Of a stretch of DNA of 32,053 nt, positions 3,448-8,544 are shown piece by piece (position 1 is the first letter of the stretch; each line of letters opens with the position of its first letter). Where the stretch lies: positions 1-32,053 of IMG/VR virus record IMGVR_UViG_3300033388_001409; one strand, 5' to 3'. The position numbers and the translations under genes were made by a program. The notes under the pieces were generated by a model. That model was not told where the DNA came from, searched no databases, and was given only the letters and a program-made list of their open reading frames with translations. The DNA is from a virus.

Positions 3448-4020
3448 ATGACAAAAAAAGAGAAATTAATGGTGATATTCGAGCTAATAGAAAACAAGTT
3501 CAAGTTTACTAAAGCTCAAATAATTACAAAAGACAGGCATAGACCTTTAGCTGATATTAGGCAAATAGCAATGGTTATCGCTTATAAATGCACTAAGATG
3601 AGTTTACCAGAGCTAGGTAGAGTTTTTAAACGAGATCATAGCACAGTCTTGCACGCAAAGGACAAATATGATAGAAACCTAAGAAAATCCTGTAAGGGTA
3701 GTAGAGTATTTAGTGATGAAATGGTAAGCTTTGTAGATGAGGCAACTGAAATATTACTAAACATAGGCGATAAGAACGACAATCGACTAGAGTTATTTAA
3801 TCGAACTATAAGCGACCGAGAGAGAATGATAATTGAGCTAGGCAGTCAGAAGGGCTTTGTAAACACCGAGATAGCCAAGATGTTAAAAATACCTAGTTGG
3901 ATAGTAGCTGAATATAAGTTTAAGCACAAGATAGACCGAGAGGGTCATAATCACACAAAGAGCCTGATAGTGCCTAATTACAAGAACGGAACATTTGAAA
4001 CAATATGTATGGAGGAATAA
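3448..4020 (+). CDS. DnaA domain IV fused to a second HTH-like domain
   Basis: This is 190 aa. Residues about 12-72 reproduce the DNA-binding domain of DnaA: D-I-R-Q-I-A-M at 36-42, M-S-L-P-E-L-G-R-V-F at 51-60 and the hallmark RDHSTVLHA at 62-70. There is no AAA+ ATPase or DnaB-interaction domain. The C-terminal half (about 120-165) has a second helix-turn-helix-like segment (F-V-N-T-E-I-A-K-M-L-K-I-P). In bacteria this motif reads DnaA boxes at oriC. Here the protein probably recognises phage or host DnaA boxes, as an initiator, a regulator or a blocker of host initiation. It lies a few hundred bases after the mini-DnaA-IV gene. The domain call is firm; the role is inferred. Confidence 0.85.
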   Translation: MTKKEKLMVIFELIENKFKFTKAQIITKDRHRPLADIRQIAMVIAYKCTKMSLPELGRVFKRDHSTVLHAKDKYDRNLRKSCKGSRVFSDEMVSFVDEATEILLNIGDKNDNRLELFNRTISDRERMIIELGSQKGFVNTEIAKMLKIPSWIVAEYKFKHKIDREGHNHTKSLIVPNYKNGTFETICMEE

Positions 4021-4976: not shown

Positions 4977-5429
4977 ATGAGTAAAAAAATTATATGTGAT
5001 TTAGATGGAACACTATTTAATATCGAAGAAAGAAGAAGGTTTATTGAGAAAGAACCAAAAGATTGGAAATCATTTTCTAACCCTGATAATATCTTAAAAG
5101 ATGAAATAAATAATTGGTGTGTTAAATTATTACAGGCAATGTCAGTTAAAGGTTATACTATATATTTTTTAACAGGAAGAATGAGAAAGACTGGTGTATG
5201 TGAGGCGACTTGTGAGATGATAAGGTTTTGTGATATTGGTGGTAGCTGGACTTTACATATGAGGGAGGATAAAGATTATCGCCCTGATACAGTAATTAAA
5301 AAGGAAATGTTAGATAGGATAGGCGATAAAGAAGATATCTTATTTGCAATAGATGATAGAAAGTCAGTTGTTGATATGTGGAGAGAAAATGGAATAGTGT
5401 GTCTTCAGTGTGCTGAAGGTAATTTTTAA
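4977..5429 (+). CDS. HAD-superfamily phosphatase, polynucleotide-kinase 3'-phosphatase type
   Basis: The 150-aa sequence carries the four HAD motifs. ICDLDGTLF gives nucleophile D8 and acid/base D10. FLTGR has motif II T66. K108/K109 lies in V-I-K-K-E-M. The motif IV acidic pair is D126-D127 in F-A-I-D-D-R. Size and the LTGR motif recall the 3'-phosphatase domain of T4 polynucleotide kinase, which removes 3'-phosphate or 2',3'-cyclic ends during nucleic-acid repair; 5' deoxynucleotidase is the alternative. No kinase or ligase domain is adjacent, so a complete repair pathway is not shown here. It is a cytoplasmic early gene. The family is certain, the substrate is not. Confidence 0.8.
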   Translation: MSKKIICDLDGTLFNIEERRRFIEKEPKDWKSFSNPDNILKDEINNWCVKLLQAMSVKGYTIYFLTGRMRKTGVCEATCEMIRFCDIGGSWTLHMREDKDYRPDTVIKKEMLDRIGDKEDILFAIDDRKSVVDMWRENGIVCLQCAEGNF

Positions 5430-8208: not shown

Positions 8209-8307
8209 GTGTTATTTACCATTATTTGTGAATTATTTTATAAGTCATTGAAATTAAACGAAAGATTTATTGTATTATTTTGGCTGTGTAGTATATATAT
8301 TATATAA
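8209..8307. other. AT-rich gene-free divergent spacer
   Basis: No gene is visible between the leftward cluster and the rightward promoter at 8308. The stretch is almost pure A/T toward its right end (alternating TA at about 8290-8306). It could host operators or an unwinding element, but I see no repeated box that would prove an origin. Confidence 0.4.
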
Positions 8308-8335
8308 TTGACTTTTAGTGAGAATTGTGTATAGT
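8308..8335 (+). promoter_or_regulatory. Sigma-70 promoter TTGACT-16-TATAGT for the tRNA-like RNA
   Basis: TTGACT at 8308-8313 and TATAGT at 8330-8335 are separated by 16 bases. The expected start, six or seven bases after the -10, is about 8342, exactly the first base of the tRNA-like acceptor stem. The string GTGTATAGT recurs in the promoter at 30433. Confidence 0.75.
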
Positions 8336-8341
8336 GGTTAT

Positions 8342-8544
8342 TGAGATGTGGTGGAAAAGGTAAACACATACGGACGCATTGGTAGTCGACAATAAAAATA
8401 TAAATCCAATGGAGTTAGGTTAGCCGAACTTAGCCAATAACATAGTCAGGGTGACTGTAAGTGTTATTTAGTAGTAAAATTATAGGCGGTCATTCCCTCG
8501 CAAGGTTTTGATTACATATAGAGTGCAAATCTCTATCATCTCAC
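8342..8544 (+). ncRNA. Interrupted tRNA-Leu-like RNA
   Basis: The ends look like tRNA-Leu. TGAGATG (8342-8348) pairs perfectly with CATCTCA (8537-8543). TG follows at positions 8-9. A Leu-type D arm comes next (GTGG, A-rich loop with GGTAA, then CAC, 8351-8367). A T arm has ATAGAG/CTCTAT stems around the loop TGCAAAT (8524-8530). Between them, instead of a normal anticodon and variable arm, lie about 150 bases with their own stems: CATTGG 8377-8382 with CCAATG 8406-8411, AATAACA 8436-8442 with TGTTATT 8462-8468, and inner AGTCA/TGACT 8444-8456. No proper anticodon loop is found and CCA is not encoded. It may be an interrupted or decayed tRNA or a tRNA mimic; it is too short for a typical group I intron. 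Confidence 0.55.

Follow-up and report, generated by a model that had tools for sequence, protein, structure and literature searches.

Positions 8342-8543 (+ strand) of the window, by which we mean the whole 32,053-nucleotide viral stretch analysed here (IMG/VR record IMGVR_UViG_3300033388_001409), almost certainly encode a member of a widespread and uncatalogued family of tRNA-like RNAs that lack an anticodon arm. The frame consists of an acceptor stem, U8-G9, a Leu-type D arm, a 150-nt middle, and a T arm. The same frame occurs in more than 200 distinct loci, mostly in Bacillota phages and prophages that are unrelated by protein, and also in plasmids. Members were identified in the phages SPP1, phi3T, phiJL-1, PSA, LP65, and P100.

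A tRNA-like frame around a non-tRNA middle

The initial annotation of this region described tRNA-Leu-like ends enclosing a structured, non-tRNA middle, a description that is strongly supported by the retention of the frame, with covariation, in relatives. The elements on which it was based, namely seven of seven acceptor pairs, TG at positions 8-9, a Leu-type D arm, and a readable T arm, were all found at the positions given in Table 1, with the further detail that the six pairs of the T stem extend the acceptor into a 13-bp stack. The reported lack of an encoded CCA was confirmed, and no canonical anticodon arm was recognised, again as first described. The account of the middle held in part: an insert of about 150 nt that is not of tRNA type is indeed present, but in place of the three nested stems first described, folding predicts four hairpins side by side. 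One segment of this domain, AGCCGRACTTAGCNNATAAC, is common only to L002, the single viral contig retrieved by the exact D-arm scan described below. Unconstrained folding recovered the frame of the window RNA exactly, with an energy no better than that of shuffled sequences (z -1.06). The fold alone therefore proves nothing, and comparative evidence is needed.

Table 1. Features of the tRNA-like RNA and of its upstream region in the window.
Feature	Position	Strand	Remarks
Promoter-like site TTGGCT-N17-TATAAT	8280-8308		Second site, overlapping the next one; 10/12 matches
Promoter-like site TTGACT-N16-TATAGT	8308-8335	+	10/12 matches
Acceptor stem, 5' strand TGAGATG	8342-8348	+	Complementary to 8537-8543 at 7/7 positions; covariation at every pair across the family
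U8-G9 linker (TG)	8349-8350	+	TG in nearly all members and without exception in the 47-member alignment
D arm GTGGAAAAGGTAAACAC	8351-8367	+	3-bp stem 8351-8353/8365-8367; equivalents of A14, A15, G18, G19, and A21
Middle domain, 150 nt, replacing anticodon and variable arms	8368-8517	+	Assigned from the family frame
Hairpin A of the middle domain, predicted	8373-8416	+	Thermodynamic prediction only
Hairpin B, predicted, over the AGCCG motif common to L002	8418-8435	+	Prediction and sequence sharing with L002
Hairpin C of the middle domain, predicted	8436-8468	+	Prediction only
Hairpin D, predicted; 3' strand abuts the AU preceding the T stem	8471-8515	+	Covarying helix at the same place in other subfamilies
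AU preceding the T stem	8516-8517	+	U48-like base invariant in 136/136 members
T arm ATAGAG-TGCAAAT-CTCTAT	8518-8536	+	6-bp stem ATAGAG/CTCTAT; loop U54 G55 C56 A57 A58 A59 U60
Acceptor stem, 3' strand CATCTCA	8537-8543	+	C8544 at the discriminator position; CCA not encoded

Identification of the family

A blastn search of the window region against phages returned no match, and relatives reached through the terminase or portal protein were too distant to be used. Scanning IMG/VR for the exact D arm led to a single other contig, L002, which carries the same frame directly upstream of terS; neither the terminase nor the portal of that phage resembles its counterpart in the window. With the L002 RNA as query, the D arm was matched in Bacillus nitunaviruses, within the same acceptor/D/T frame and with the loop TGCAAAT. 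Patterns combining the D arm and the T loop yielded 19 viral contigs and 88 genome stretches, the D arm alone at least 120 contigs, and a later viral scan again at least 120; a regular expression requiring pairing collected 147 members, 136 of them distinct. The phylum-wide genome counts are lower bounds, as few candidates were scored per genome. A cyanophage match to the D arm was rejected as a member, since it turned out to be a true tRNA-Leu.

The family is defined by the D arm GNGGAANAGGTANACNC, a 6-bp T stem closed by UGCAAAU, a 7-bp acceptor stem, and an insert between the D and T arms, all of which are present in the window RNA.

Comparative evidence for the RNA structure

The unbiased tests of pairing used genome hits and later viral hits chosen by their D arm and T loop, and never by pairing. 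All seven acceptor pairs form in 59 of 78 distinct genome frames and in 60 of 79 independent viral frames, compared to 4.9% and 3.5%, respectively, with shuffled partners. The outer four pairs of the T stem are complete in 76/78 genome and 73/79 viral frames. In the 47-member alignment, double compensatory changes are seen at 12 of 16 pairs, with a covariation of 0.762 (0.198 when shuffled) and 98.9% of paired cells (72.2% when shuffled); because this alignment was pre-selected for pairing, it is the unbiased tests that carry the argument. Covariation extends to the D arm, whose middle stem pair varies as GCG/CGC, GUG/CAC, and GAG/CUC.

Covariance analysis of the relatives finds both ends conserved. 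A covariance model built from 47 other members, thus with the window outside the seed, recovers the window RNA at 50.2 bits (E 2.8e-12). The members of SPP1, phi3T, and phiJL-1 score 78.6, 78.2, and 77.1 bits, and those of PSA, D6E, and P100 reach 57.1, 54, and 42.5 bits, while LP65 is matched three times. True tRNA-Leu genes obtain 23-34 bits under the same model. The separation is clean for most members and narrow for L002 (33.5), the membership of which is based on its T-loop insert and the middle motif that it shares rather than on the score alone.

A conserved elbow and exchangeable middles

The conserved positions are U8, G9, the 3-bp D stem, A14, A15, G18, G19, A21, U54, C56, and A58, together with the U that precedes the T stem (Table 1). 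These are the bases that build the tRNA elbow, and the tertiary core is kept. The unusual features of the family are G55 and the sixth T-stem pair, which gives rise to the 13-bp acceptor/T stack.

In contrast to the frame, the middles range from 8 to 192 nt and fall into unrelated subfamilies. Internal helices covary within some of these subfamilies. The 3' strand of one such helix runs right up to the AU before the T stem, and it is there that hairpin D is predicted in the window. The middles are structured, divergent, and exchangeable, with domain structure shown only for some subfamilies. A distinct subtype has a T loop interrupted between G55 and C56 by an insert of 42-71 nt. The insert usually starts with ACUAUACGAG, ends with CUCGU or CUCGG, and is bounded by a conserved helix of the ACGAG/CUCGU type. 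Inserts of 47-71 nt are found in L060, L063, L051, L100, L126, L346, L347, L349, L350, and L351, and related ones in L072 (42 nt) and L002 (25 nt). In addition, a second, canonical T arm (GGTTCGAxTCC) lies in the middle domain of several clostridial-type members (L050, L141, L189, L190, L196, L220, L222, L228, L073, and L163), as if a tRNA-like module were nested there.

Features that argue against a charged or translating tRNA

ARAGORN at default stringency, with introns up to 3000 nt included, called 0 tRNA or tmRNA genes in the window; at relaxed scores it produced more than 100 spurious tRNAs, which were disregarded. An intron-bearing or decayed tRNA, as first envisaged, is an extremely improbable reading of the region. 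It would account for the Leu-type D arm, which is nearly identical in the cyanophage tRNA-Leu, and for the sequence ACGGA (8370-8374), readable as the 5' half of a Leu anticodon stem. However, ARAGORN was negative even with long introns, the insert is only 150 nt long and contains no Rfam group I intron, and no canonical anticodon arm is recognised. Moreover, the frame is under covarying selection across a family whose middles are unrelated, and the UGCAAAU loop and the 6-bp T stem are absent from ordinary tRNAs of the same loci.

The 3' end of the RNA also differs from that of tRNAs. Of 132 members, a single one has CCA after the acceptor, whereas 119 of the 177 ordinary tRNAs encoded in these loci do. 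The discriminator is A (35), U (32), G (6), or C (5), the last being the base of the window, and the acceptor sequence is otherwise free to drift across the family. For leucine identity, a tRNA must have A73 together with the G18:U55 and G19-C56 contacts, and charging of a truncated tRNA-Leu is lost when C73 is present (PMC9976931). In the window, C takes the place of A73; C56 is kept in the family, while G55 replaces U55, so that the G18:U55 contact is lost. Given the free discriminator, the C of the window, G55, and the drifting acceptor sequence, the RNA is unlikely to be leucylated or to serve as a substrate of LeuRS. Of the functions raised in the initial annotation, that of a substrate for leucyl-tRNA synthetase thus finds no support, and RNase P substrate or mimic and decoy are candidate roles. 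More generally, the missing anticodon arm and CCA, the free discriminator, G55, and the 13-bp stack suggest that the family RNA would not take part in translation as a tRNA, and that it is probably not charged. In staphylococcal tRNA-Gly, G55 (in a GUGC T loop) is linked to weak EF-Tu binding.

Expression and processing

A promoter had been proposed to place the start of transcription on the first base of the acceptor stem. Two sites with 10/12 matches do lie upstream (Table 1), yet the region of the window contains 6 promoter-like sites where 3.8 are expected from shuffles. Across 128 members, 8 adjacent promoters were counted versus 5.8 in shuffles, which is no enrichment, and an adjacent promoter was discarded as a shared feature of the family. 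The first base is free and is T in 47 of 132 members, T being a poor transcription start. As members begin with any base and most have no promoter of their own, the majority are probably released from longer phage transcripts through the action of host tRNA-maturation enzymes. The stretch of Listeria phage CKA15 that was searched holds no full member, its best match (24.3 bits) being the tRNA-Leu of CKA15, and the transcriptome of this phage (PMC12282133) consequently does not test the family.

The same features bear on a rather unlikely alternative, in which the tRNA frame is a processing and stability module and the middle is the effector. The frame would allow release by RNase P and RNase Z and, being closed, would protect the RNA, much as a natural tRNA scaffold, and the middle would act as a small RNA, an antisense RNA, or a protein-binding RNA. 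An invariant frame around unrelated middles is consistent with such a division of labour, as are the free first base and the scarcity of adjacent promoters. It is harder to reconcile with the two shortest middles, those of L120 (8 nt, almost no middle) and L030 (23 nt), and with D- and T-loop bases that are more constrained than processing alone should require.

Genomic settings

A late-transcription activator (RinA/ArpU/Alt-type; PHROGs 36, 248, and 2198) is the upstream neighbour in about a third of the loci. The window and L002 members are both located upstream of terS, the members of Sha1 and phiFL2A are followed by HNH and terminase genes, and the SPP1 member separates head gene 9 from scaffold gene 11. 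These positions are compatible with a cis element or a structural RNA of the late/packaging region, either a late-operon leader or antiterminator or a packaging or head RNA resembling phi29 pRNA. Yet this possibility appears improbable for the family when all settings are considered. The LP65 and P100 members sit inside tRNA arrays, tandem pairs occur in L008 and L022, and the phi3T member adjoins yonN/yonO. Other members are found on plasmids and at a non-prophage chromosomal site, and the nearest downstream ORF is on the opposite strand in 43 of 131 cases. An operon-leader reading was not supported family-wide.

The plasmid members are those of Enterococcus pheromone plasmids, where the RNA is encoded between sea1/prgA and asa1/prgB (L352:3938-4270, L353:3938-4032). 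A near-identical member is present in eight Listeria species (L150, L175, L184, L191, L195, L202, L215, and L230). In L150, the one examined among the eight, it occupies a chromosomal site outside any prophage, with azlC-azlD, genes for exporting branched-chain amino acids, ahead of it and a DUF1361 gene behind it. In PSA (L232:3253-3698), the Rfam RNA rli62 precedes the member and mcrA follows it; likewise, in L006 (L006:8509-8559), an mcrA RNA follows the member. This variety of settings, from tRNA arrays and tandem copies to plasmids and the chromosomal site of Listeria, suggests that the family RNA acts in trans and moves horizontally.

Several further observations were made in these loci. 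In the pTEF1 copy, the D loop is degenerate, and about 160 nt past the Enterococcus plasmid member lies another tRNA-like sequence, ending in GTAGGTTCGACTCCTACCACGCC, that is not called by ARAGORN. Unannotated tRNA-like pieces with the T arms CGAGGTTAGATTCCTCG and CGAGGTGCAATTCCTCG are present in a Bacillus nitunavirus (L004:470-546 and L004:1000-1140). In P100 (L258, 119500-131384), GenBank places the tRNAs on the plus strand, while ARAGORN places all of them on the minus strand, like the genes and the new RNA; the tRNA annotation of LP65 (L236) appears to be reversed relative to its members in the same manner. An ORF with a weak match to ArdA (antirestriction), below the cut-off, is encoded just upstream of the member of L347 and on the same strand (L347:5416-6195, minus). 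Finally, the products of the window's phage include a protein of sigma-70 type, a PNKP-type phosphatase domain, and an HTH protein of the DnaA C-terminal kind (509-1093, 4977-5429, 3448-4020).

A possible elbow-binding RNA

Each RNA of the family adopts the class II tRNA fold at its acceptor stem, D and T arms, and tertiary elbow, and an exchangeable domain, structured at least in some subfamilies, stands where the anticodon arm would be. We propose that the RNA acts in trans. Most likely, the elbow would occupy a host protein that grips tRNA by its elbow and acceptor, candidates being RNase P, RNase Z, a tRNA-modifying enzyme, or a tRNA-targeting defence effector. The variable domain may then set what the RNA-protein complex does or blocks in each phage. 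The frame presents the surface that such a protein would recognise, and it is the middle that changes from phage to phage. Taken as a whole, the picture of an uncatalogued family matured by host enzymes, uncharged, and binding proteins in trans through its elbow while carrying a variable domain is our best explanation, which we hold with somewhat less than even confidence. The specific mechanism, in which the RNA would act as a decoy or inhibitor that engages a host tRNA enzyme or a tRNA-targeting defence effector through its elbow, is put forward more tentatively, from the shape of the RNA. Counting against a decoy, the loci downstream of a late activator and some of those upstream of HNH and terminase genes also fit a role in the late operon. 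In addition, strong variation of the middle is also expected for an effector domain and does not single out the decoy. It is doubtful, if conceivable, that these RNAs form a large and so far undescribed class of phage tRNA mimics whose elbow neutralises host tRNA-binding enzymes or tRNA-targeting defence effectors and whose specificity lies in a fast-evolving domain.

A quite different partner would be a ring protein of the Ro60/Rsr type, with the RNA working as a Y RNA-like tether, which we consider highly improbable. Y RNAs mimic the D, T, and acceptor arms of tRNA (PMC8394870), and a Y RNA with an Rsr-like protein has been proposed for abundant RNAs of CKA15, a phage related to P100 (PMC12282133). 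P100 itself has a DUF2828 gene near its tRNA array, and the nested T arm of some clostridial members would also be in line with a Y RNA. However, the ends of a Y RNA form the Ro-binding stem and its tRNA-like part is internal, whereas the ends of the family RNA form the tRNA. No TROVE (Rsr/Ro60) protein was encoded in any of the 20 member-carrying records and DUF2828 was found in 2 of the 20, counts that include fragmentary records and leave room for a host-encoded partner. The RNA-seq of CKA15 is no test of this reading either, as no full member was found in the stretch searched.

A structured and covarying RNA has remained unannotated in the model phages SPP1, phi3T, PSA, LP65, and P100 and in many Bacillota prophages, as well as in Enterococcus plasmids and at one chromosomal site of Listeria. 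The part of tRNA that it mimics is the one recognised by RNase P, RNase Z, CCA-adding and modifying enzymes, the ribosome, and several defence nucleases, and the mimicry avoids the features needed for translation. The covariance model could serve to annotate hundreds of phage genomes. If the decoy mechanism is true, well-studied phages would have concealed a whole family of RNAs serving anti-defence or takeover.

Comparison with known systems

With Rfam 15, no match at the gathering score was obtained over the RNA in the window or in 20-odd member loci, the matches being limited to neighbours such as mcrA and rli62; with a relaxed threshold, only chance matches fell over the RNA. The tRNA, tmRNA, and group I intron families, singled out for comparison in the initial annotation, are among those that do not match the window RNA. 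Annotation is absent over almost all phage matches. Searches of open-licence papers returned no description of the family; an earlier one may exist in subscription papers or preprints.

Non-coding RNAs that mimic tRNA are a known kind, and the present architecture fits no known member of it that could be tested. The closest likeness is to class II tRNA-Leu, which has the 7-bp acceptor, almost letter for letter the same D arm, and U8, A14, A15, G18G19, A21, U48, U54, C56, and A58. The family differs from it by the absence of an anticodon arm and of CCA, the 6-bp T stem, G55, and the free discriminator, and its RNAs do not match the tRNA models of ARAGORN and Rfam. It resembles tmRNA in having tRNA-like ends and a large domain that replaces the anticodon arm. 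Contrary to tmRNA, its D arm is of Leu and not Ala type and no conserved tag reading frame was noted, and neither ARAGORN nor Rfam gave a tmRNA match in the window. Bacterial Y RNA (YrlA) is likewise a modular tRNA mimic with D and T loops, from which the family is set apart by its reversed topology, the lack of an Rfam match, and the TROVE-free records described above. The T loop recalls the staphylococcal non-proteinogenic tRNA-Gly in its G53-U54-G55-C56, but that tRNA has an anticodon and is charged with glycine. Finally, virus-encoded tRNA mimicry is shared with the 3' tRNA-like structures of plant RNA viruses; these are chargeable ends of RNA genomes, whereas the family described here is a small RNA from DNA phages.
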